A stretch of 64,000 nucleotides of DNA from Desulfovibrionales bacterium (GTDB taxonomy: Bacteria; Desulfobacterota; Desulfovibrionia; Desulfovibrionales; Desulfonatronaceae). Every line of letters starts with the position of its first letter. The stretch's first letter is position 1. The stretch lies in NCBI GenBank assembly GCA_007693505.1, contig REDL01000080.1:1-64000 (forward strand), written 5' to 3'. The position numbers and the translations under genes were made by a program. The notes beneath the pieces are model-generated. The model saw only the letters and a program-made list of their open reading frames with translations. It was not told the DNA's origin and searched no databases. This document shows positions 1 to 46,951 of the stretch, piece after piece.

Positions 1-80
1 CACCCGGCGACTGTCAACAAAAAATTTAAAAAAATTAAAAGAAATATTTTTACGTAAAAAATCAAGATCTTAAAAATCAC

Positions 81-120
81 AAAAAAAGACGCCCTTCCCG
101 AATATCTCGAAAAAGGCGTC
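81..120 (-). terminator. Rho-independent terminator of the nuo operon
   Basis: Arms at 88-100 and 108-120 form a 13-bp stem with three G-U pairs and a 7-nt loop when read on the minus strand. A run of seven T follows (complement of 81-87). It lies about 35 bases past the nuoN stop, so it most likely ends the long minus-strand operon. Confidence 0.85.
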
Positions 121-156
121 AGCAGGCACAGACCCTGATCATGTCCATGACCAGGG

Positions 157-1593
157 CTAAGGAAGAACGCCACCAGCCGCGGCTCCAGCGAGTTGAGCGA
201 AAGAAAACAAGGTAGCCGGCGCCACGCCCAGCCAGAGCACAGCGGCTGCGAGCAGCCCGCCCCAGAGCAAACCTGGGTTGGGCACGGCCTGAACCTCACC
301 CGATGCCGTAACCGGCGCTTCACGGGTATACGCGTGGCGAACCAAATTGAGATAGTAGTAGATGGCGATGGCCGAGTTGAGCACCGCGATGATCACCAGC
401 CAGTGGTAGCCTTCCATCCAGGCGGAGTTCAGCAGGAACAGCTTGCCCATGAACCCGGCAGTGGGCGGCAGCCCCACCAAGGCAAAGGCGGAGACGGCAA
501 GAACAAGGGCCAAGCCTGGTGAACGTTGATACAAGCCATTTAAATCGTCCAGTTTGAGGTTACGGCCGTCCGTGGAAAGGCGGCAAATCACCCAAAAACA
601 GGCCAGATTCATCAGCAGATACACCACGGCATAAAACGCGGCAGCGGCCAGTCCAGCGGCGGTTCCGGCCACAATGCCCAGCATCACATATCCAGCGTGG
701 GACACCGAGGAGTACCCCAGAAGACGTTTCAGATCATTCTGGACCAAGGCTGAAAGGTTGCCGAACGTCATGGACACCGCGGCCAGCACGGCCAGAAGCA
801 TGGTTACCTCCATGCTCGGATCCAGCAGCGTGGAAAGACGGACCAGAACCACCACTGCGCCCAGCTTGGGCAGCGTTGCCACGAAAGCCGCGGTTTCATT
901 GGATGCTCCCTCGTAAACGTCCGGGCACCAGAAATGCAGTGGGAACAGAGCCAGCTTGTAGAACAGCGCACCCAGGAAGAGCGTTAACCCGATCAAGGCA
1001 GCGGGCGCCTCGGACCAGGACCAGGTTTTGGTCATCAGTTCCGAGAGATAGGTGGTGTGGTGCACCCCCAGGATGTAGGACAGCCCGTACATGGCCAGGG
1101 CCGTGACCACGGCGCCGAACAGAATGTACTTGATCCCGGCCTCGGCCGCAGCCGGTTCCTTGGACCGCAGGGGGATCAAGGCGTAAAGACTGTAGGAGGC
1201 CAGTTCCAAGGCGAGGAAGATGGTTACCAGTTCCACGGCGCTGGAAAGCAGCATCAACCCCAGGGCGCTGAGGCAAAGAAACAGAAAGTAGTCCGGCCGC
1301 TTTTCCTCGGACAGCGTCGGCTGATTCAAGGCGTTCAGGCAGGTCACGGCCAGGCCCAGGAAGATGGCCAGCTTGAAAAACTGGGACAGTCCGTCAACCT
1401 GATATGCCCCGTAAAGCATCAGCCCGGAAAATTGGAAAGACAGCGCCGCCACGCCGATACCCACTCCAGCGGCAAGGGGCAGATACCGTAAGAAGCGCCA
1501 CCAGGACTGAGGCCCCACGGTCAGGACGAAAAGCCCGCCGATCAGGGCCAACAGGTACAGTTCCGGGATGAACAGCTCTATTTGGAAGATCAC
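157..1593 (-). CDS. nuoN: NADH-quinone oxidoreductase-like subunit N
   Basis: A 478-residue polytopic membrane protein of the proton-conducting antiporter-like family of respiratory complex I; NuoN couples quinone reduction to ion translocation. The family core is clear: KLALFPLHFWCPDVYEGAS near residue 215, LKRLLGYSSVSHAGY near 290 and GLPPTAGFMGKLFLL near 378, among about 14 predicted helices. Length is normal for NuoN. The start overlaps the nuoM stop by 4 bases, so the two are probably translationally coupled. It is the last gene of the operon, followed at once by the terminator. The order nuoM-nuoN at the operon end is typical. Confidence 0.95.
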   Translation of the reverse strand: MIFQIELFIPELYLLALIGGLFVLTVGPQSWWRFLRYLPLAAGVGIGVAALSFQFSGLMLYGAYQVDGLSQFFKLAIFLGLAVTCLNALNQPTLSEEKRPDYFLFLCLSALGLMLLSSAVELVTIFLALELASYSLYALIPLRSKEPAAAEAGIKYILFGAVVTALAMYGLSYILGVHHTTYLSELMTKTWSWSEAPAALIGLTLFLGALFYKLALFPLHFWCPDVYEGASNETAAFVATLPKLGAVVVLVRLSTLLDPSMEVTMLLAVLAAVSMTFGNLSALVQNDLKRLLGYSSVSHAGYVMLGIVAGTAAGLAAAAFYAVVYLLMNLACFWVICRLSTDGRNLKLDDLNGLYQRSPGLALVLAVSAFALVGLPPTAGFMGKLFLLNSAWMEGYHWLVIIAVLNSAIAIYYYLNLVRHAYTREAPVTASGEVQAVPNPGLLWGGLLAAAVLWLGVAPATLFSFAQLAGAAAGGVLP

Positions 1594-36245: not shown

Positions 36246-37004
36246 TCAGGACTCCAGGCAGACCAGGTCCATATCCCCCCAGACCCCGACCTGTTCACCG
36301 CACTGGGCAAAGACGCCGTCAAGGCCGTATTGGGCCAAAGCAGCGGCCCGTTCCATGACCAAGGGCATGTCCTTTGGAGTACGCAACAGATTGGCCAGGG
36401 CCGTAGCCGCGGCGTCGGCCAGGGCGGCGCTTTGGGAGCGGGCGGCCATCAGGTCTGCCTGGCCGAAACTCAGGGAGTGGCCGATGGTGGCCGATGAGGA
36501 GCAAAACGAGCAGGGAAAGTCATTGACGCCAATGCGCAGGCCCAGCCCGGCGTCACCTTCCGGAAAAGCCAGCAGGCCGATAATCCGTTCTCGGGCGGAG
36601 CGCAGAAAGAGGTCGCCGCCATTTTCCACCAGCAATGTTGAACCGACCTCAGGGCAGTGCTCATCCATCCAGGTGACCACCCACTGGGCCATGGCTCCAG
36701 CCACGGCGGCCATGGGACCGACACCGCATATTCGCGCGGCTCGGGCCATATCCTGGACGATCCCAGCCGCACGCGAACTGACGGAAATCGGCACGAGGCT
36801 TGTAGCGAATTCCGGCTGCCTGGAGATATGTGTTTGCAGCAACCCGCGGCAGGTATTCACCGCCTGAAGCACTTCGCGACGTACATCCCGCTGGGCCACG
36901 ACCCATAAATCCGTCTGCTCCACCACGACCTGAAAGCCCACCTCATCGGTTCCCGGAAGGGTTCGCCGCCGGTAGGTTCGCCAGGGAGAGGTATGTTGGT
37001 TCAT
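36246..37004 (-). CDS. UPF0280-family protein (ApbE-like)
   Basis: A 252-residue protein of the UPF0280 family, distantly related to the flavin transferase ApbE. Recognisable parts are the N-terminal YRRRTLPGTDEVGFQVVVEQTDL, the central ICGVGPMAAVAGAMAQW near residue 95 and LVENGGDLFL near 130, plus a Ser-rich patch (CSFCSSSATIGHSLSFG) near 170. Members occur beside nad genes, and their function is not established. The ATG at 37004 overlaps the nadB stop by 4 bases. It is the last gene of the nad operon. Confidence 0.8.
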   Translation of the reverse strand: MNQHTSPWRTYRRRTLPGTDEVGFQVVVEQTDLWVVAQRDVRREVLQAVNTCRGLLQTHISRQPEFATSLVPISVSSRAAGIVQDMARAARICGVGPMAAVAGAMAQWVVTWMDEHCPEVGSTLLVENGGDLFLRSARERIIGLLAFPEGDAGLGLRIGVNDFPCSFCSSSATIGHSLSFGQADLMAARSQSAALADAAATALANLLRTPKDMPLVMERAAALAQYGLDGVFAQCGEQVGVWGDMDLVCLES

Positions 37005-38584
37005 CCCTCTTCCCGGTAATGGCATCCCTTGCTCTGGGTGTTGCGCATGGCCGCAGTGGTGATGATGTAGGCGGTTTGACAGCCGTGGAACAAATCCACC
37101 AGTGGTTTGGAAATCTGGGTTTCCTTGTAGAAGGAGTGCAAACGTTTGTTCAGGTCGCGCAGGTCGTCAAAGGCCCGCTTCAGGCGCGGAGTGGTCCGCC
37201 GGATTCCAACGTAGTTCCACATGGTATGCTTGATGGTGGCCCAATCCTGGGCCACCAGGACCGGGTCCTCGTTCTGGCGGTGCCCCAGGGCATTCCATGG
37301 GACTATGGAGGATTTCAGTTTCCGGCCGAGCATGGAGCTGCGCTTCGTCCGCAGGGCCACGTCGCGGCCGATGGCGTATCCCCAGATCAAACCTTCCAGC
37401 AAAGACGTACTCGCCAGGCGATTGGCCCCGTGCACGCCGGTGCAGGCACATTCGCCTCCAGCATAGAGGCGCTCGATGGTCGTCCGTCCCCGCTGATCCA
37501 CCAGGATGCCGCCGCAAAAATAGTGGGCCGCCGGGACCACGGGAATCGGTTCCTTGGTCATGTCCACGCCAAGGTTCGCACAGCGCTGGTGGATGGTCGG
37601 AAACCGTGCTGCCAGGTCTTTATGGATGTAGGTAGCCGCGTCGAGATAGACAAAGTCGTCGTTGGTCTTGAGCATCTCCTCGACAATGGCCCTGGTGACG
37701 ATGTCCCGGGGAGCCAGATCGGCTCGAGGGTCGTAGTCCGCCATAAAGGCCCGGCCGTGCACGTTGATGAGCCGTGCACCTTCACCGCGCACGGCCTCGG
37801 AGATGAGAAACTTTTGCGGCCCCCGATGATACAGGGACGTAGGGTGGAACTGGATGTACTCCTGGTTCATCAGACGCGCCCCGGCTCGGTGCGCCATGGC
37901 AAACCCGGAACCGAGAGAGCCGGGGCTGTTGGTGGTGTTCAGATAGATCTGACCGATCCCCCCGGTGGCCAGAACCGTATAGTCCGCCAAAAAACGGCGG
38001 ACGATCCCGGATGAATGCTCCAGGATATATGCTCCCGTGCACTGGTTGACGATCTGGTAGCGGATTTCCAGGGCGTTGCTATGGTGGTGGGTGGTCAGGA
38101 TGTCAATGGCCGTCATTCCGGTCAGTACCCGGATATTTGGGCTCTTGCGCACGGCCACGACCAGGCTGTCCATGATCACCCGGCCGGTATAGTCCGCGCT
38201 GTACAAAATTCTGGCGCGACTGTGGCCGCCTTCCCTGGTCAGATGGTACTCCCCGTGTTCTTCCCTGGCAAAGGGCACGGCCAACTTCTCCAGAAACACG
38301 TTATGAAGGATTTCCGGCCCCTTGCGGCATAAAAAGCGGACAGCGGACGGCGAGTTCATCTCCCAACCGGCGGTAGTGATGTCCGAAGCCAGCAGTTTGG
38401 GAGAGTCATTGAGGCCACGATAGACGATTCCGCCTTGTGCCAAGGCTGTATTCCCATCATCGAGTTGGTTGCCTGCGCAAACCAGGGTGACCTCCAGGCC
38501 GGCTTCGGCCATGGTCAAGGCGGCCACACACCCGGCGATTCCCGAACCGATGACCAAGACTCTGGCTTCGATGGTATCGGTCAT
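37001..38584 (-). CDS. nadB: L-aspartate oxidase
   Basis: A 527-residue FAD flavoprotein that oxidises L-aspartate to iminoaspartate for NAD synthesis. The FAD fingerprint VLVIGSGIAGCVAALTMAEAGL is at the N-terminus; the TALAQGGIVY loop follows near residue 47, HTREGGHSRARILY-like substrate loop near 118 (LTREGGHSRARILY) and ATGGIGQIY near 208. GGECACTGVHGANRLASTSLLEG lies near 378. It overlaps nadA and UPF0280 by 4 bases each. In anaerobes fumarate can replace oxygen as acceptor. Confidence 0.95.
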   Translation of the reverse strand: MTDTIEARVLVIGSGIAGCVAALTMAEAGLEVTLVCAGNQLDDGNTALAQGGIVYRGLNDSPKLLASDITTAGWEMNSPSAVRFLCRKGPEILHNVFLEKLAVPFAREEHGEYHLTREGGHSRARILYSADYTGRVIMDSLVVAVRKSPNIRVLTGMTAIDILTTHHHSNALEIRYQIVNQCTGAYILEHSSGIVRRFLADYTVLATGGIGQIYLNTTNSPGSLGSGFAMAHRAGARLMNQEYIQFHPTSLYHRGPQKFLISEAVRGEGARLINVHGRAFMADYDPRADLAPRDIVTRAIVEEMLKTNDDFVYLDAATYIHKDLAARFPTIHQRCANLGVDMTKEPIPVVPAAHYFCGGILVDQRGRTTIERLYAGGECACTGVHGANRLASTSLLEGLIWGYAIGRDVALRTKRSSMLGRKLKSSIVPWNALGHRQNEDPVLVAQDWATIKHTMWNYVGIRRTTPRLKRAFDDLRDLNKRLHSFYKETQISKPLVDLFHGCQTAYIITTAAMRNTQSKGCHYREEG

Positions 38585-39612
38585 GCTTCGGCTTCCATGA
38601 CGTCCAACATGGTCTCTAAGGCCTTGCGAGCGTTGGGTGCCACGCCCGGCTCCACCAGGACCGGCTGATGTCGATCACGATTTTCCAAGGTATCCAGCAG
38701 CTTCGACTCAGTGATCTTGAGCATTGCACTACAGTACCCTGCACCCAGTGGATAGATATGCTTGTTTGGGTGTCGTCTTGCCAGGCGCAGAACCAAGTTG
38801 TCCTCCGTGCCGATATAGATCGTGGCCCCCGACGGGGCTTCGTCCACGGCCCGGATGATACCAGACGTGGACGCGGAAACATCGGCCAGAGCCACGACGT
38901 CAGGATCGCATTCCGGGTGGACGAATATCAGAGGTCGCGGATCATCCTCCAGCACCAGGCGAACATCTTCGGGTTTGAGACGGAAATGGATGGCGCAAAC
39001 ACCAGGCCAGTAAAGCAACTTACGCGACAATGTTGTTTCGTCCAGCCGTGCTGTGCCCCGAACATCCACCACGGCCTGATCCTGCGGGGCAATCCCCAAC
39101 AGACTCGCCGTATTCATGCCCAAGTTCTTATCCGGCAAAAAAAGAACGCAATCCCCTTGGCCCATGGCCCATCGCAGCATGATCTTGGCATTGGCCGAGG
39201 TGCAGACACTCCCGCCATACTGACCGCAGAGCGCTTTCACCCCGACGGACGAGTTCACGTAGGCCAACGGGACGACTTTGCGCCCTGTTTTGGCTATGGC
39301 TTCTAATATCTGGGCGACTTTTGCAGTGGGTGCGGTCCCGGCCATGCAGCAATGGGCGGTGGGATCGGGGATCAACACGGACTGTCCCGAAGTGGCCAGC
39401 AATGTCGCGGTCTCGGCCATGAAGGACACACCGCAAAACACGATGTAGCGAGCCTCAAGACGTGGTATGCGCCTGGCCAACTCCAGGGAGTCTCCCTGAA
39501 AATCCACGTGCCGGATCACTTCGTCGCTCTGATAATGGTGGCCGAGAATGGCCAAAGAGGCCCCGAGATGTTCACGAAGCGCGGTGATTTTTTGAAAATT
39601 GGTCTCGGTCAT
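38581..39612 (-). CDS. nadA: Quinolinate synthase
   Basis: A 343-residue 4Fe-4S enzyme that condenses iminoaspartate with dihydroxyacetone phosphate to quinolinate. Landmarks are LGHHYQSDEVIRHVDFQGDS near residue 23, VNSSVGVKALC near 123 and GSVCTSANA near 135 (cluster ligand region), FLPDKNLGMNTA near 160, HPECDPDVVALAD near 235, and GAGYCSAMLKITESKLLDTL near 296. It lies 5 bases after nadC and overlaps nadB by 4 bases. Confidence 0.95.
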   Translation of the reverse strand: MTETNFQKITALREHLGASLAILGHHYQSDEVIRHVDFQGDSLELARRIPRLEARYIVFCGVSFMAETATLLATSGQSVLIPDPTAHCCMAGTAPTAKVAQILEAIAKTGRKVVPLAYVNSSVGVKALCGQYGGSVCTSANAKIMLRWAMGQGDCVLFLPDKNLGMNTASLLGIAPQDQAVVDVRGTARLDETTLSRKLLYWPGVCAIHFRLKPEDVRLVLEDDPRPLIFVHPECDPDVVALADVSASTSGIIRAVDEAPSGATIYIGTEDNLVLRLARRHPNKHIYPLGAGYCSAMLKITESKLLDTLENRDRHQPVLVEPGVAPNARKALETMLDVMEAEA

Positions 39613-39617
39613 GCGGT

Positions 39618-40529
39618 TTATCCTTGACGTTGAGAAAGCGAAAAATGGCCGTCAACATCGGCGGCCAGATCGATGCCCATACTGATGTCCGCACAGACCG
39701 CCGAGTGGGTCAGGGCACCGACGGAAATGAATGTAGGGCGAAGAGCGGCCAAGTCGGCGATGGTCTCCAGGTTCACACCGCCGCTGATCTCGGTTTCCAT
39801 GGTTTTGGGAATCATGGCCAAAGCTTGGGATATCTGCTCCGGGTGCATGTTGTCCAACATGACCCGTTGCACCGGCAGGACAGACACTTCGGCCACCTCA
39901 TGCAGGGTTCGGCATTCGACCTCGATGGGGGGACAGGGATCGTAGGCAGCCAGCAGTTTGCGCACTGCCGGAGTAATGCCCCCAGCCCTGTCGATATGGT
40001 TGTCCTTGAGCATCAGCATGTCACTGAGATTCAAACGGTGATTGGTGCCACCTCCCATGAGCACGGCGTATTTTTCCGGGTAGCGCAGACCGGGAGTGGT
40101 TTTCCGGGTGTCCAGCAGGCGGACTCCCGTCCCGGCGATTTGCTGAAGAAATATCTCAGTCAGGTTGGCGATGCCGGATAGTCGGCCGATGAAGTTCAGG
40201 ATCACCCGCTCCGCCTTGAGCAGACTCCGGGCTTGACCATGTAGACGAGCGACATATGTTCCCGCAGTGACCCGCTGTCCTTCCGCCGCAGCATAGCCCA
40301 CCTGCACTGGTCCCGGCAGATGCTTCAGGACCTGGGCAATAATCGGCAACCCGACAATGCGGGAATCCTGCTTGACCCGGATCACTGCCGCGGCCCTGTC
40401 GGCTTCTGAAAAAAGCGCTTCAGCGGTCAAATCCCGGCCATCCTCTTCCAGGCTGATCCGTATCAGCCGGTCCAGATACTCCAGGGCCTCGCCGTGAAAA
40501 AAGGAATGAAAGCGTGAATGATCGTCCAT
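39618..40529 (-). CDS. nadC: Nicotinate-nucleotide pyrophosphorylase
   Basis: A 303-residue quinolinate phosphoribosyltransferase, making nicotinate mononucleotide. Motifs are ERVILNFIGRLSGIAN near residue 108, LLDTRKTTPGLRYPEKYAV near 133 and GGGTNHRLNLSDMLMLKDNHI near 155, and a C-terminal EISGGVNLETI near 250. ATG at 40529. It is the first gene of the operon nadC-nadA-nadB-UPF0280. Confidence 0.95.
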   Translation of the reverse strand: MDDHSRFHSFFHGEALEYLDRLIRISLEEDGRDLTAEALFSEADRAAAVIRVKQDSRIVGLPIIAQVLKHLPGPVQVGYAAAEGQRVTAGTYVARLHGQARSLLKAERVILNFIGRLSGIANLTEIFLQQIAGTGVRLLDTRKTTPGLRYPEKYAVLMGGGTNHRLNLSDMLMLKDNHIDRAGGITPAVRKLLAAYDPCPPIEVECRTLHEVAEVSVLPVQRVMLDNMHPEQISQALAMIPKTMETEISGGVNLETIADLAALRPTFISVGALTHSAVCADISMGIDLAADVDGHFSLSQRQG

Positions 40530-40870: not shown

Positions 40871-41857
40871 ATGTTCCAAAAGCCATCGACAACTGCTTTG
40901 AATTGCCTTTCCGATTCCACACGCATCTCCCGCCGCAGCCTCCTCAAGGCCCAGAGCAAGGCCGCATTGGTTTTTGCCGCGGCGAGTTCCGGGCTCTTCC
41001 GTGTCTCCCCACTCCTGGCGGACCAGAGTTTTCCGGATGGCCCGGACCTGAGCATTGCCAGGGGTGGCCCCGGTCCGGCGACCAGAGCCGCAGTGGAGGC
41101 CCTGGGCGGCATGACCGCCTTTGTCCGCCCCGGCCAGCGGGTGGTAATCAAGCCGAACATGAGCTTTGCCCATCCTCCGGAGCGGGCCACGAATACCCAC
41201 CCGGACGTGGTCCGGGAGCTTGCCGTGATGTGCACGGAGGCTGGCGCCGCACGCGTGCGCATTCTGGATCATCCGCTGCAAAGCGCGGAGATGTGTCTGG
41301 TACAATCCGGCATTCAACAAGCCTGTGCCGGTTTGCCTGATGTTTCCGTACATACCATGAGCGCCGCACGTTTTTTTCGCGAGGTTGTCATCCCCCAAGG
41401 CGAACAACTGCGGCAAACCCAGGTCATGGAGGATGTGCTGGCTGCCGACGTGCTGATCGCCGCGCCGGTGGCCAAGTCCCATTCAGCCACTGGGGTCAGC
41501 CTGGCCATGAAGGGCATGCTCGGCCTGATCCTGGACCGGGGCATCCTGCACCGCCGGTTCGACCTGCATACGGCCATCGTTGACCTGACCACCCTGCTCA
41601 TGCCCGACTTGACAGTGGTGGACGCCACCAGGGTGCTCTCCACCAACGGTCCCTTTGGCCCGGGCAAGGTTCTTCAGGAGGATACGGTGATCGCCTCCCG
41701 GGACGTCGTGGCCGCGGACGCCATGACCGTCAGAATGTTTGAGTGGTATGGTCGACGCATCGCACCACGACAGGTTCGACACATTCTTTTGGCCCATGAT
41801 CGAGGCTTGGGAACCATGGATCTGTCCGGCTTGCAAGTTGCCGAAACCACCGCATGA
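40871..41857 (+). CDS. Tat-exported DUF362 protein
   Basis: A 328-residue protein with a twin-arginine signal: SRRSLLK near residue 20, followed by a hydrophobic stretch with a likely cleavage after LLA near 49. The mature part is a DUF362 domain: GGMTAFVRPGQRVVIKPNMSFA near residue 77, THPDVVRELAVMC near 110 and VAKSHSATGVSLAMKGMLGL near 205. DUF362 proteins are often found next to ferredoxins, but the reaction is not known. AAAAGGAG lies 7 bases ahead of the ATG. Its stop overlaps the next polyferredoxin gene by 4 bases, so they are a unit. Confidence 0.88.
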   Translation: MFQKPSTTALNCLSDSTRISRRSLLKAQSKAALVFAAASSGLFRVSPLLADQSFPDGPDLSIARGGPGPATRAAVEALGGMTAFVRPGQRVVIKPNMSFAHPPERATNTHPDVVRELAVMCTEAGAARVRILDHPLQSAEMCLVQSGIQQACAGLPDVSVHTMSAARFFREVVIPQGEQLRQTQVMEDVLAADVLIAAPVAKSHSATGVSLAMKGMLGLILDRGILHRRFDLHTAIVDLTTLLMPDLTVVDATRVLSTNGPFGPGKVLQEDTVIASRDVVAADAMTVRMFEWYGRRIAPRQVRHILLAHDRGLGTMDLSGLQVAETTA

Positions 41858-43650
41858 TCCGTTTTCAACGCATCGTTCAGGCCCTGAGCCTCAGCGCCTT
41901 TCTGTTGTTGCTGGGCGTGGCCTTTTTCCCGGTGCCGGGCTGGGCTCCTGTGGATGCCTTCCTCCGCCTGGATCCCCTGGTCATGCTGGGCACGATTCTG
42001 GCCGATCGTTCCTGGATCACTGCCATGATTCCGGCTGCAATCATCCTGGCCTTGACCGCTGTCCTTGGACGCTTTTTTTGCGGTTATCTTTGCCCCATGG
42101 GCACCACCCTGGATATTACCGATCGTCTGGTACGCATACCATCTCCCGCTGTTGCGTCAACAAGGCTGCGAAGTGCCTCCGGAGAACAGTCATCCACTCC
42201 TGACGACTCAGAGCAGGAGCGCCTGCTACCGCCCCCAACACATCCACCATCAGGATTGCGCCAAATCAAATACCTGGCATTGTTCTTTATCCTGGGTGCC
42301 GCAGTCCTGGGTGTATCCGCGGTATTCCTGGCTGCTCCCCTTTCGCTGATAACCCGCTTCTACAGCCTGCTCATCCATCCGGCGGCGGCTCTGGCCGGGG
42401 ACTCGGTCCTGCATTTTCTGCGTCCCTTGGCCCTGCACCTGGATTGGACGCAACTTGCCTATGCCGAAATCCATCTCCCCAGATTTACGACCCAGTGGTT
42501 TCTGCTGATTTTCTTTCTGGCCGTGTTTGCCCTGGTTCGATGGAGTCCGCGGTTTTGGTGCCGATATTGCTGTCCCTCCGGAGCGTTGCTGGCCCTTGTG
42601 GGACGACGACCACTTTTCCGCCGGCACGTTTCCAAAGCCTGTACTGGATGCGGTGCCTGTCAACACCGCTGCCCCATGGCGGCCATTCCGGCAAATCCGT
42701 TGCAGACCGCACATGAAGAATGCATTGTCTGCCAGAAATGCGTCCGGATCTGCCCGGTCCGGGCCGTGTCCTTTCAACCGCTTGTTCAGCCCGGCACCAT
42801 GCCGGTCCGATTTTCTCCCAATCGCCGAGCAACGCTTTTGGCCGGATTGGCCGGGGCCGGAACAGCGACGTTGACATACACCGGGCTGCTTGAGGTCCGT
42901 GGAGAAATGCTCCCCGGGAACATCACTCCGGAAGAGTTGATTCGTCCCCCGGGCAGCCTCCCGGAACGCCAATTCCTGGCCCGGTGCATCCGCTGCGGGC
43001 TGTGCATGCGCTCCTGCCCCACGAATACCCTGCAGCCCATCTGGTTTCAGGCCGGAGTCATCGCTATGTTCAGCCCCCAACTGACACCAAGGCGGGGGCC
43101 ATGCGAACCGGAATGCACTGTCTGCGGCCAGGTCTGCCCCACCGGAGCCATCCGGTTCCTACCCCATTCCGAAAAGATCTGGGCCAAGGTCGGGACCGCG
43201 ACGATCCATCGCCATCGCTGCCTCGCCTGGGAATGGAACAAAAAATGTCTTGTTTGTGACGAGGTTTGTCCGTATGATGCTATTGACCTACAAAGGGTGA
43301 CGACGCACAACCAACCCGTTCCTTTCGTGGACGGCAATAAATGCTCGGGGTGCGGATTTTGCGAGTATCACTGCCCGGCCCGACCAGGGTCGGCCATTGT
43401 CGTCAACTCCACGGAAGCATTGCGCATATCCGATGGTTCCTACAAGGAACTTGGTCAAAGCATGGGCCTCTCGCTTCAGTTGTCTCCAGGAGAGTACCCA
43501 GTTTATGGTCCTCAGAATCAACACCTTTGGGAACCGTTGCCGGATGACTCAGTCAGTCGCGATAACGACAACGTACGTGACAATGTGCCGAATGGGTTGC
43601 CCAACGGGGCATCCGGGACGGATACTCCACCACCAGGCTTCACACCCTGA
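41854..43650 (+). CDS. NapH-NapG-like fused membrane polyferredoxin
   Basis: A 598-residue protein. The N-terminal half is a NapH/NosR-type membrane part with several helices and two cysteine motifs on the cytoplasmic side (FCGYLCPMG near 75 and FWCRYCCPSG near 234), then ferredoxin motifs at C263-C273 and C290-C300. A twin-arginine-like SPNRRATLLAGLAGAG follows near 331, and a NapG-like second half begins: LIRPPGSLPERQFLARCIRCGLCMRSCP near 372-389, then cysteine motifs near 417-428, 456-472 and 497-507. So NapH- and NapG-type modules seem fused. No nap genes are near. It likely passes quinol-derived electrons to the periplasm, with the DUF362 protein as partner (inference). A hairpin without T run spans the stop codon (43637-43659). 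Confidence 0.85.
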   Translation: MIRFQRIVQALSLSAFLLLLGVAFFPVPGWAPVDAFLRLDPLVMLGTILADRSWITAMIPAAIILALTAVLGRFFCGYLCPMGTTLDITDRLVRIPSPAVASTRLRSASGEQSSTPDDSEQERLLPPPTHPPSGLRQIKYLALFFILGAAVLGVSAVFLAAPLSLITRFYSLLIHPAAALAGDSVLHFLRPLALHLDWTQLAYAEIHLPRFTTQWFLLIFFLAVFALVRWSPRFWCRYCCPSGALLALVGRRPLFRRHVSKACTGCGACQHRCPMAAIPANPLQTAHEECIVCQKCVRICPVRAVSFQPLVQPGTMPVRFSPNRRATLLAGLAGAGTATLTYTGLLEVRGEMLPGNITPEELIRPPGSLPERQFLARCIRCGLCMRSCPTNTLQPIWFQAGVIAMFSPQLTPRRGPCEPECTVCGQVCPTGAIRFLPHSEKIWAKVGTATIHRHRCLAWEWNKKCLVCDEVCPYDAIDLQRVTTHNQPVPFVDGNKCSGCGFCEYHCPARPGSAIVVNSTEALRISDGSYKELGQSMGLSLQLSPGEYPVYGPQNQHLWEPLPDDSVSRDNDNVRDNVPNGLPNGASGTDTPPPGFTP

Positions 43651-43727
43651 GGGTGAAGCTCCTGTTCACTCCAAGTTCATGACTGCCGCATAGCATTCTT
43701 TCAACGTTGATCATTTTGGATCTGTAC

Positions 43728-45158
43728 ATGCAAAGCTCATCTTCACTGGACATCGCATCACTCTGCCTGGAATATCCCAGAGCCCTGTCCGTCCAAAAAC
43801 GCATCCACGAAAAGATCGACGACTACGCTGACTACAATTTCTCCTCGTTGCAAAGCACGGCCCTGAACGTATTTTTCGACTTGGCCCAGGAGTTTGATTC
43901 CTTTCGAGACCTGATGACCGTCTGCGCCCTGGTCCCCAAGGTTTTTTTCGACCTGGACTGCACGCTTTACCTTTTCCAGAATCACCAACGTGTCGAACAC
44001 TTCTCCATTTGTCCCGAAACGGGCCAGAACCCCTCTCCTGCAGTCCACCTCCCTCCCTTGACCATCCCGACATCCCACGATGGGCACTACTACCTGCCGA
44101 TCAAGGGCAACAAGGACCTGCAATCCTCCTATCCTGTCAACTCCGAAGGCAATCTGCTCGGCATCCTGGATATCCATCCGGAAAAATCACTTTCTGATCA
44201 CGATCGCCTTTTTTTGGAAAAATACGCCAACAGGGTCGGGTTTCAGCTGCACAGTCGACTGCTGAGCCAGAAAAACCAGGAACATCTCCAGTTCATCCGC
44301 AGCCTGGTCAAGGACATTGGCCACAACGTCATTGTGCCGAACATGTACTTCAAACTTTTCTATCGCCGGCTGGAAGGCACCATCAATGCCATGGGCGATC
44401 TGGCCGAGGACATGCACGCCGCCCATGCACAGCCCCATGAAATCGGCACCGCCCATTGGCAAAAACTCATTACCAGAGCGGACTATATCCAGGAGGCACT
44501 TCAGGATCAGTTTCGAGAAATCCAACGTCACTACGACAACACCAGCCTGTTTTTGGAAACCCTGTTGCGGCGCAGCCATTTTGAACAAGGCCGTTATGTG
44601 CTGGAAAAACGGGCCTGCAACTTCAAAAATCAAATCATCGACCCGCAAATCGCCCGATTCATGTCCCAGTTCGAAGAGCGCGGCATTGAAATCGCATGGG
44701 CCGGCATCCCGGACAAGGAAATCGAGGTGGTGGTCGATGTCGGCCTGATCACCCAGGTTTATGCCAATCTTTTCTCCAATGCCGTGAAATATACCGCCCC
44801 GGTGCGCGATGCCCGCGGCCGATGGGTAAAATTTTTGTCCTATGGCTGGGAAGACATGCCCAATTTTTTTGGCAATTGCCGCGACGGTGTCAAACTGAAC
44901 GTTTTCACAACTGGTCCGCATATCGTCGGTGAAGAACGGGACAGGCTTTTTGAGGAGGGATTTCGGGCTGGAAACACCGCTCAGGAACCAGGAACGGGCC
45001 ACGGATTGTTTTTCATTCGCCAGATCGTGGAACTGCATGGGGGGCGAATGGGCTATGAGCCAACCCCCATGGGTAATAATTTTTTCTTCATCCTTCCCAA
45101 GGACGCTTCCTCTCATTCCCCGTTCCTTGGCTCCGGCAATCCCCGCAAACACCCTTGA
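43728..45158 (+). CDS. Sensor histidine kinase with GAF-like input
   Basis: A 476-residue soluble kinase; no membrane segment is seen. The first about 190 residues may be a GAF-type sensor (DLDCTLYLFQNHQRVEHF and LLGILDIHPEKSLSDHDRLFLEKYANRVGFQL). The phosphorylation helix is unusual, LVKDIGHNVIVPNMYFKLFYRRLEGT near residue 200. The ATPase part is clear: N box QVYANLFSNAVKYTAP near 345 and G2 box GTGHGLFFIRQIVELHGG near 428. ATG at 43728 preferred over TTG at 43707. No response regulator gene is adjacent, so it is an orphan kinase here. Its target is unknown. Confidence 0.82.
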   Translation: MQSSSSLDIASLCLEYPRALSVQKRIHEKIDDYADYNFSSLQSTALNVFFDLAQEFDSFRDLMTVCALVPKVFFDLDCTLYLFQNHQRVEHFSICPETGQNPSPAVHLPPLTIPTSHDGHYYLPIKGNKDLQSSYPVNSEGNLLGILDIHPEKSLSDHDRLFLEKYANRVGFQLHSRLLSQKNQEHLQFIRSLVKDIGHNVIVPNMYFKLFYRRLEGTINAMGDLAEDMHAAHAQPHEIGTAHWQKLITRADYIQEALQDQFREIQRHYDNTSLFLETLLRRSHFEQGRYVLEKRACNFKNQIIDPQIARFMSQFEERGIEIAWAGIPDKEIEVVVDVGLITQVYANLFSNAVKYTAPVRDARGRWVKFLSYGWEDMPNFFGNCRDGVKLNVFTTGPHIVGEERDRLFEEGFRAGNTAQEPGTGHGLFFIRQIVELHGGRMGYEPTPMGNNFFFILPKDASSHSPFLGSGNPRKHP

Positions 45159-45343
45159 GTTTTATCAGGGGCTGAGATACCCTTGACCATGTGTGAAGTA
45201 GAAAATTTACGCTTGGAGCAAGGAGGTGACCTGTTTTCTCTATACACTATCTGACACGACCGTATAACCATTCGATTCGTTTCTGATTCTCGATAGGTCG
45301 TCCCCTGTCTCCCCTGAATAAGGGATCAAACAAAGGAGTTGTG

Positions 45344-46447
45344 ATGATGCGCAAACCTGTTCTGAAACCGTTGTATGTTCTCTTGGCCTTTTCCCTCTTT
45401 CTCACCCTGTCAACCTCGGCCATCGCCCAAACCGAGCGAATTGTCCCCAGAGCGGAAAACTTTCTGTTTTTTATCGACCATTCCGGATCCATGGCCATGA
45501 GCGCCCCCTCCGAGTCTCAAAGCTCCCTGGCCGCACGCCACGATCCAAACAAGCAGGAAAAGATCGAAGTCACCAAGGAAGTCTTGAAGGCCATCAACAA
45601 CGACATTCCGGACATCACCTTCACCGCTGGTCTGTATACATTTGGCCCCTTTCAAGAGTACATCGCCCCCTCGCCGTACGACCCCAATCGCTTGAACCAG
45701 GGGATCGGTGACTTGCAGACCCAATACGACATTTTCGGTCGCCTCACCCCCATGGGCCTTGGCCTGCAGTCCCTGGACGCCGTGATTGGCGGCCTCTCCA
45801 ACCGCAGAGCGGTGATCCTGGTCACGGACGGCGAATCCAATATCGGCCCCAAACCGCTGCCGATTATCCAGGACATGTACGCCAGGTATGGCACCGACCT
45901 CTGCTTCCACGTGATCAGCTTTGCTCAGACCGCGGCTGAAAAAGCCCTGGTGGAGCAGATCGCCGCAGTCAATCCCTGCACGGTCACCGCCGATGTCATG
46001 GACCTGCAGGACGATGCCAAGCGTGCGGAATTCGTGCGCAAGGTGTTCTATGACGTGGAAGTCATCCCGGCGGCTCCTGTTGTCGAGCCCACCCCCCCGG
46101 CTCCGGTGGAAGAAGTCATTGTCTTCCGTAATGTGAATTTCGACTTTGACCGGTACAACATCAAACCTGAATTCGAGCCCCTGCTCCGAGAAGCCGCGGA
46201 AATCATCAAGGCCCGCCCCGGAAATCAGGTGCTTGTTGATGGTCACACCTGCAACATCGGCCCCGCGGCCTACAACATGGGTCTGTCCGAACGCCGGGCA
46301 TCTTCGGTCCGCAACTTCCTGGTCAACGAGGGCGTTGAAGCGGATCGCATCACAACCCGGGGTTTTGGATTGACCCAACCCCGATTCGACAACAATACCC
46401 GCGAAGGTCGCTCCTTGAACCGTCGCGTGGAAATTCGCTTCGAATAG
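45344..46447 (+). CDS. Secreted VWA-OmpA fusion protein
   Basis: A 367-residue envelope protein. A Sec signal peptide (about 1-28, cut after AIA) is followed by a von Willebrand A domain: FFIDHSGSM near residue 44 gives the MIDAS DxSxS motif, with LVTDGESNIGP near 165. The C-terminal about 110 residues are an OmpA-type peptidoglycan-binding domain: NVNFDFDRYNIKPEF near 261 and LSERRASSVRNFL near 318. The usual short Pro-rich linker (PAAPVVEPTPPAPVEE) lies between. AAAGGAG is 5 to 8 bases ahead of the ATGs at 45344/45347. It probably links a calcium- or protein-binding domain to the cell wall. Confidence 0.9.
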   Translation: MMRKPVLKPLYVLLAFSLFLTLSTSAIAQTERIVPRAENFLFFIDHSGSMAMSAPSESQSSLAARHDPNKQEKIEVTKEVLKAINNDIPDITFTAGLYTFGPFQEYIAPSPYDPNRLNQGIGDLQTQYDIFGRLTPMGLGLQSLDAVIGGLSNRRAVILVTDGESNIGPKPLPIIQDMYARYGTDLCFHVISFAQTAAEKALVEQIAAVNPCTVTADVMDLQDDAKRAEFVRKVFYDVEVIPAAPVVEPTPPAPVEEVIVFRNVNFDFDRYNIKPEFEPLLREAAEIIKARPGNQVLVDGHTCNIGPAAYNMGLSERRASSVRNFLVNEGVEADRITTRGFGLTQPRFDNNTREGRSLNRRVEIRFE

Positions 46448-46507: not shown

Positions 46508-46951
46508 ATGCAGCACCATATACTACGTCTGTTGTTGCCTGCCGCGCTCCTGCTCCTTATGGCCACCCCATCCCTTGCCTCAGGATTTGACACTTCACCC
46601 GGCACGGCGCACCATTCAGCCATCGAACTCCAGTTCGCCGAGTTTTCCAAAAACTGGATCGACAAGATCGACCGAAGCTTCACCTCTCGAATCGGCAACA
46701 TCACGTTCGAAACCAACAGCAGAGGATACGTCGGAAGGTACATGCAGGTGGATCGGGACTCCGTTTCCTGGTCTGTCAAGCAGACCACCAACAGCCCGCC
46801 CACGTACATCGGTTTACTGGAATACACCGAGTGGACCTATGAAAGCGTGGCTCCTACCCGCGAAGGTGCGGCCCAGGGGCCCTTTGTGGTGGTCCATGGC
46901 CGCAAGGTCACCGAGATTTTTCAGTACAAGGCCAATCGCTGGCTGGAGTGA
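46508..46951 (+). CDS. Small periplasmic hypothetical protein
   Basis: A 147-residue protein with a signal peptide (hydrophobic run LLLPAALLLLMATPSLA, cut after SLA). The mature part is beta-rich: FSKNWIDKIDRSFTSRIGNITFETNS, and ends with HGRKVTEIFQYKANRWLE. No family is recognised. It directly follows the VWA-OmpA gene and shares its transcript up to the strong terminator, so the two may act together at the cell envelope; that link is inference. Confidence 0.75.
   Translation: MQHHILRLLLPAALLLLMATPSLASGFDTSPGTAHHSAIELQFAEFSKNWIDKIDRSFTSRIGNITFETNSRGYVGRYMQVDRDSVSWSVKQTTNSPPTYIGLLEYTEWTYESVAPTREGAAQGPFVVVHGRKVTEIFQYKANRWLE

Follow-up and report, generated by a model that had tools for sequence, protein, structure and literature searches.

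Which reaction is carried out by a protein that is exported through the twin-arginine translocation (Tat) pathway and encoded directly ahead of a membrane polyferredoxin? The question is raised by two overlapping genes, for a DUF362 protein and a polyferredoxin, at positions 40,871 to 43,650 of a 64,000-nucleotide stretch (the window; contig REDL01000080.1, positions 1 to 64,000, forward strand) from the Desulfovibrionales bacterium assembly GCA_007693505.1, a genome of 98.5% completeness. An earlier note on this DNA had read the pair as a self-contained quinol-to-periplasm electron line serving an unknown DUF362 reaction. That reaction can now be narrowed by a predicted LarA fold, by a His/Lys/His triad, and by the larE, larB and larC genes for the nickel-pincer nucleotide (NPN) that directly follow the pair in one genus lacking LarA matches. 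Based on these features, together with the gene pair, the export signals and the cluster cysteines, we propose, in what we regard as close to an even call, that the DUF362 protein acts in the periplasm as an NPN-type hydride enzyme, exchanging electrons with the quinone pool via the polyferredoxin. The features concerned are as follows.

40871..41857, plus strand: DUF362 protein, 328 aa, Tat-exported, predicted LarA-like fold (PF04015, AlphaFold2, LarA rows)
40871..41026, plus strand: Tat signal region of the DUF362 protein, with the R21R22 codons at 40931-40936 (sequence; homologue motif)
41480..41482, plus strand: H204 codon, aligned opposite the catalytic His174 of LarA (conservation, alignment to LarA)
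41510..41512, plus strand: K214 codon, aligned opposite the NPN-tethering Lys184 of LarA (conservation, alignment to LarA)
41549..41551, plus strand: H227 codon, aligned opposite the nickel-ligand His200 of LarA (conservation, alignment to LarA)
41854..41857, plus strand: 4-base ATGA overlap of the DUF362 and polyferredoxin genes (sequence)
41854..43650, plus strand: membrane polyferredoxin, 598 aa, a NapH-like followed by a NapG-like part (profiles, alignment, described family)
42823..42828, plus strand: codons of the internal twin arginine R324-R325, ahead of a predicted helix at 324-344 (alignment; helix in model)

A widely conserved gene pair

The coordinates and the four-base overlap given in the earlier note are correct, and the co-occurrence of the two genes, which it had proposed to check, is extensive. 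Among 297 genomes of the phylum, searched at thresholds of 1e-50 and 1e-40, 158 encode both proteins, 7 the polyferredoxin only, 21 the DUF362 protein only and 111 neither. DUF362 lies directly upstream (≤120 bp, same strand) in at least 101 of the 150 polyferredoxin places listed, directly downstream in 1 and within 15 kb in 18 others, while for 30 there is none among the 150 DUF362 places listed; the upstream counts are lower bounds owing to contig ends and to the use of listed places only. Within 15 kb, DUF362 accompanies at least 120 of these 150 polyferredoxins, and tblastn located it in 125 of 140 polyferredoxin neighbourhoods. Both genes are present at the 15 best loci from the window genome and its relatives (L006-L020, window included; DUF362 is in two frames in L020) and at 12 of the 21 loci from a collection of named genomes (L021-L041), where two of the nine loci without the pair (L028, L030) begin at the polyferredoxin, so that the upstream side is out of view. 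The DUF362-polyferredoxin pair is therefore a real, widely conserved unit. Contrary to the earlier note, the pair is not always self-contained, since a Tat-exported aldo/keto reductase carrying a 4Fe-4S domain lies within 15 kb of 10 of the 150 listed polyferredoxins, in some cases with DUF6599.

At one locus (L029:9036-11557), a 286-aa protein with a CGACC stretch and no Pfam match precedes the polyferredoxin in place of DUF362.

Predicted fold and conserved triad of the DUF362 protein

The DUF362 protein matched PF04015 at E = 5.7e-44 (151 bits, cut-off 24). Its own Tat signal, as claimed earlier, was borne out by the twin arginine R21R22 and by an RR-x-phi-phi motif in 136 of 141 homologues. 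When an AlphaFold2 model built on an 11-sequence alignment (predicted local distance difference test, pLDDT, 86.7; predicted template modelling score, pTM, 0.81) was compared with solved structures, the top 11 rows were all LarA-type proteins (VIA Z 16.4-19.4), the best of them matching over 208 residues at 2.6 Å (VIA Z 19.4) in the N-terminal LarA domain; row 12 was a Thermotoga protein (4nar, Z 15.8), and the first unrelated fold appeared at Z 6.1. Foldseek likewise matched the model to LarA racemases (E 4.5e-7). The protein is thus predicted to have the N-terminal LarA fold, which structure comparison alone revealed, a sequence search of solved structures with the protein or its alignment having returned no LarA. 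Shared descent of the two families is not new, because both belong to Pfam clan CL0471 (PMC11770544), and in the same paper DUF362 serves as an outgroup to LarA; the addition made here is the site.

In LarA, NPN is bound via R75, K184 and H200, and catalysis uses D72, H108, H174 and K298 (PMC7583248). Comparison of a profile of 142 DUF362 sequences with one of 57 LarA sequences placed H204, K214 and H227 of the window protein, conserved in 141, 141 and 140 of the 142, opposite H174, K184 and H200. The match had P values of 8.5e-4 (local) and 7.6e-5 (global), and 0.017 with smaller alignments; 40 of 40 column-shuffled profiles scored lower (best P 0.0052), as did a reversed control. Structural alignment of the model (64..295) to 6c1w (chain 35..271) runs from an offset of 29 to one of 24, compared with triad offsets of 30, 30 and 27, which gives a weaker, model-based consistency for the proposed register. 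The same K-x-H...K...H pattern occurs in three other DUF362 proteins of the window genome.

The pair, with the full triad, is also carried by a Parabacteroides record filed as a plasmid (L090; NZ_OY725750.1 112227-124973), in which it is followed by tgt and LptF/G, genes of chromosomal appearance. Should NPN synthesis be absent from Bacteroidota, the triad has another role in them.

NPN genes beside the pair

In one genome (G036, locus L107), genes for DUF362, polyferredoxin, LarE, LarB and LarC follow one another on one strand, and a single-contig genome of the same genus (G309, L128) has the identical order. As read from the DNA of G036, 11 bases separate the polyferredoxin and LarE genes, and LarE overlaps LarB as LarB overlaps LarC. 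The LarE and LarB assignments exceed their curated cut-offs (258 vs 150 bits and 237 vs 175 bits), and LarC was located by tblastn; the whole genome contains one PF01969 match. At both loci the tblastn match of LarC covers only about residues 10-240 of the reference; LarC matches end at about position 230 of 375 in four genomes reached from L021-L041. Neither G036 nor G309 had a Lar_N match at E≤1e-5, and G036 had none at 1e-3. A rough post hoc estimate puts the number of such gapless tandems expected by chance at 0.004.

A different arrangement was found in another genus (L091, L092), where the genes ahead of the polyferredoxin, all on its strand, encode an FMN (flavin mononucleotide) reductase, LarC, LarB and a Tat aldo/keto reductase that carries a 4Fe-4S domain (Pfam assignments for L091); DUF362 of this type was not found in the L091 and L092 genomes. 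The same-strand run (L091:6263-13493, L092:6205-13582) also holds a second aldo/keto reductase with 4Fe-4S (again Pfam for L091). A periplasmic aldo/keto reductase, presumably without NADPH, is an odd neighbour for NPN genes.

A further association concerns a second DUF362 protein of the window genome, which has two 4Fe-4S motifs and no signal that we could see. Its gene lies about 65 bases behind that of LarE, and in a congener (L051) the LarE and second-DUF362 matches overlap; this adjacency is a second DUF362-NPN link, perhaps one that involves sulphur. In the alignment, the ferredoxin stretch of this protein follows directly on the counterpart of H227, and one more DUF362 protein with ferredoxin motifs inside the chain is reported in PMC7955657. 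The LarE-DUF362(4Fe-4S) genes at L001:440-2505 and L051:7742-10927 are preceded by a match, below cut-off, to methanogenesis marker 16. The window genome has LarB, LarC, LarE and a LarA, and because of the last of these DUF362 would not be its sole NPN client.

Architecture of the polyferredoxin

The 598-aa partner had been described in the earlier note as a fusion of NapH-like and NapG-like parts with an internal twin arginine and six or more 4Fe-4S motifs, and each of these claims was upheld, the last with a higher count. Profiles of the NapH type (E = 5.2e-21) and of NapG (E = 2.6e-27, residues 322-519) hit the two halves of the single chain, which also matched Fer4_5 (Pfam, E = 1.6e-13). 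Because the NapG and NapH-type scores are far under the curated NCBIfam cut-offs (95.6 vs 269 bits and 68.8 vs 234 bits), the protein is a relative rather than a member of these families. Across 162 aligned polyferredoxins (window included), R324 is kept in 156 and R325 in all 162, and a helix is predicted right behind them (324-344). The chain has 28 cluster-type cysteines, 27 of which are invariant wherever the column is present, with C293 kept in 159 of 162; this number fits seven predicted 4Fe-4S clusters. The best match in the named collection came from a Desulfonatronum assembly (59% identity in the best segment). Among solved structures, the polyferredoxin model gave partial ferredoxin-type matches only, none at E≤0.001, and NapH and NosR folds did not appear in the match list, which does not exclude such folds. 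A NapH-NapG fusion is naturally read as a quinone-to-periplasm electron line, much as the earlier note had it, but this half of the locus was already described (PMC5449189).

Proposed reaction and its wider meaning

In the reaction that we envisage, the DUF362 protein would carry NPN or a close derivative, with Lys214 binding the cofactor and His227 acting as nickel ligand. It would be loaded in the cytoplasm and exported in a folded state, which Tat export suits because the protein must fold around its cofactor first. In LarA, NPN takes up a hydride from the substrate and then gives it back (PMC12611868); here, the NPN site would be where the substrate is oxidised or reduced, and the hydride would not simply be returned as it is by a racemase. 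Two electrons would then pass through four periplasmic clusters, the membrane part and three cytoplasm-side clusters, to or from the menaquinone pool. Departure of the hydride electrons by way of clusters would be the simplest change, because an iron-sulphur partner is tightly linked, and by analogy the ferredoxin motifs within another DUF362 chain suggest electron flow in turnover as well. As for direction, the oxidation of 2-hydroxyacids by menaquinone would be downhill, so that oxidation would be favoured if the substrate is a 2-hydroxyacid.

The wider setting is given by a survey in which approximately 15% of genomes had larB, larE and larC without larA, and from which yet unknown NPN-binding proteins were inferred, many cyanobacteria being included. 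Similarly, a review of Haloferax volcanii lists larBCE and states that an enzyme with the NPN cofactor may exist there (PMC8305020). Two of our control genomes, Synechococcus elongatus and H. volcanii, gave matches to DUF362 and LarC but none to Lar_N. It is conceivable, although we lean towards doubting it, that DUF362 proteins are the missing NPN users of LarA-less NPN makers, that the exported form is the first NPN oxidoreductase, linked to menaquinone, and that ferredoxin-bearing DUF362 proteins do the same in the cytoplasm. They would not be the only answer, since the controls Corynebacterium glutamicum and Methanocaldococcus jannaschii have LarC and no DUF362 match.

The accessible portions of the literature on DUF362/PF04015 and on nickel-pincer/NPN genes contained no proposal of NPN for DUF362. 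New relative to the literature found are a DUF362 protein with a LarA-type triad, the larEBC linkage in LarA-less genomes and the wiring to a quinone-type polyferredoxin. The pair thereby offers a named, testable candidate for the question of LarA-less NPN makers, and an Escherichia coli expression assay for NPN loading exists, in which LarA gains about 450 Da in mass (PMC11796402). If the proposal is true, NPN chemistry would extend from hidden redox, as in racemisation, to open redox in the respiratory chain and the cell envelope, and a demonstration of NPN would make this a new kind of nickel enzyme.

Evidence against the proposal and alternative explanations

Several results weigh against an NPN enzyme. 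Masking the triad columns abolished the DUF362-LarA profile match; masking hence failed as an independent test of the triad register, and the link at sequence level is the motif itself, with the fold as independent support. No clear counterpart of LarA R75, D72 or H108 was seen in the global DUF362 profile alignment, and although some LarA homologues have just one catalytic histidine, the one replaced in them is His174 (PMC12611868). The C-terminal domain of LarA, with K298, lies outside the DUF362 match, and the window protein has no Lar_N (PF09861) match, PF04015 being its sole Pfam match at E≤1e-3. In the neighbourhoods, lar genes stand within about 9 kb of the polyferredoxin in only 4 of 140 cases, from two genera, and chance would account for about two lar genes there. 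Proximity within 9 kb was accordingly rejected as proof by itself, and it is the gapless tandem order that carries the weight.

Simple co-occurrence was rejected as proof as well, since LarC is present in 252 of the 297 genomes and is not associated with DUF362 overall (both 155, DUF362 only 24, LarC only 97, neither 21; p 0.32). Of the 179 genomes with DUF362, 24 had no LarC match, and near-complete genomes (G062, G106, G262 and G303) are among these. On the favourable side, LarC was found in 16 of 19 genomes reached from L021-L041. When genomes were divided by LarA, LarC accompanied DUF362, as predicted, in those lacking it (58 of 62 with DUF362 vs 40 of 58 without, p 0.0007), whereas the trend was reversed in those with LarA (97 of 117 vs 57 of 60, p 0.03); this split was made after the overall result had been seen, and the p values are too small, as the genomes are interrelated. 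In 14 control genomes, DUF362 and LarC occurred together in 4, DUF362 only in 1, Bacteroides ihuae, LarC only in 2 and neither in 7 (p 0.09).

The lack of an overall LarC association, the 24 DUF362 genomes without LarC, B. ihuae, and the failure to see equivalents of R75 and H108 would all suit a DUF362 protein with the LarA fold but no NPN, whose conserved Lys/His pocket accommodates a different ligand or metal and which trades electrons with the polyferredoxin during a periplasmic reaction. We consider this unlikely, though worth keeping in view, given that the pair stands in tandem with the three NPN genes in a genus lacking LarA matches, that the triad is near-invariant in the LarA register and that LarE adjoins a second DUF362 both in the window genome and in a congener. 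Fold and triad would equally accommodate an exported NPN racemase or epimerase, for which the polyferredoxin only keeps or restores the redox state of the cofactor, a reactivation somewhat like that by NosR; the characterised LarA enzymes are isomerases (PMC7583248), and a reduced state of NPN has been reported (PMC12611868). Such a role seems improbable, however, as the in-chain ferredoxin motifs of the second DUF362 protein, and of the one in PMC7955657, suggest electron flow in turnover, and close pairing with a seven-cluster chain would be heavy equipment for repair.

The remaining alternatives make the polyferredoxin the donor of a different enzyme. It may form a NapGH-like line that ends in the Tat-exported aldo/keto reductase with a 4Fe-4S domain, with DUF362 as an accessory, as the presence of the reductase within 15 kb of 10 listed polyferredoxins (79 reductase places), and also in L036 and L091, would allow; yet the window genome has no reductase match at E≤1e-40, a threshold that misses more distant ones such as that of L091, and at this threshold the reductase occurs in 58 of 297 genomes vs the 158 with DUF362 and polyferredoxin, which leaves this alternative distinctly improbable. 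The earlier note had itself raised the case of a split of a known NapGH or NosR system with its terminal enzyme next door in relatives. Despite the NapG and NapH profile matches, a plain split of a nitrate or N2O system is barely credible: what was examined showed one fused chain with scores far under the cut-offs and a DUF362 neighbour directly upstream at the majority of listed places, and profile scans of the window (24 of the 58 other listed open reading frames, together with 45341-46447 and 46508-46951; 36.2-51.7 kb and parts beyond) detected no molybdopterin oxidoreductase and no nitrate or N2O reductase, in line with the earlier note, which had seen no nitrate reductase gene nearby.

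At three loci (L036:6695-11443, L095:3003-7835 and L096:398-5068), the Tat aldo/keto reductase and DUF6599, a family of unknown function in Pfam, join the DUF362-polyferredoxin pair.

Neighbouring genes

Divergent from the pair, nadC, nadA and nadB occupy 37001-40529 on the minus strand of the window. Nicotinic acid adenine dinucleotide (NaAD) is the NPN precursor (PMC12611868), and these genes were considered as a sign of an NPN link and dropped, the order being present only in part in four congeners (L021, L100, L101 and L102) and absent from the other loci compared. On the other side, 56 bases 3' of the polyferredoxin, a gene with a TTG start (43707-45158) encodes a protein with a histidine-kinase-type ATPase domain; it is present in two congeners and may be co-transcribed with the polyferredoxin.

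Comparison with known systems

The polyferredoxin half of the pair is already known, as is the DUF362 family, though not its function. In 2017, Tooke et al. described a polyferredoxin of delta proteobacterium MLMS-1 (PFD, Q1NSB0) as a dual Sec/Tat protein, termed a NapH-NapG fusion, with five membrane segments, a twin arginine before segment five and seven predicted clusters, three inside and four outside; dependence of its translocation on both Sec and Tat was shown, and reporters placed behind the fifth membrane segment were exported in a Tat-dependent manner (PMC5449189). Measured against this published description, the window polyferredoxin is likewise a NapH-NapG fusion with about five membrane segments, an internal twin arginine before the last of them and seven predicted 4Fe-4S clusters, and because of this matching architecture we regard it as a new member of the described family. 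The term 'DUF' never occurs in the main text of that paper, and its passages on the protein mention neither a partner gene nor any function apart from the comparison with NapGH (PMC5449189).

With the NapGH quinol dehydrogenase, the locus shares the layout of a quinol-to-periplasm iron-sulphur relay (PMC5449189); unlike NapGH, it has a single fused chain and DUF362 as the partner, with no nitrate reductase in the scanned surroundings. In contrast to LarA, the DUF362 protein is exported, is shorter and has an electron-transfer protein as its partner. The K-x-H...K...H pattern of the window protein recurs in DUF362 proteins that have a nested ferredoxin domain and no signal seen, but whereas they hold the cluster motifs within their own chain, the clusters that go with the window protein are in its partner.

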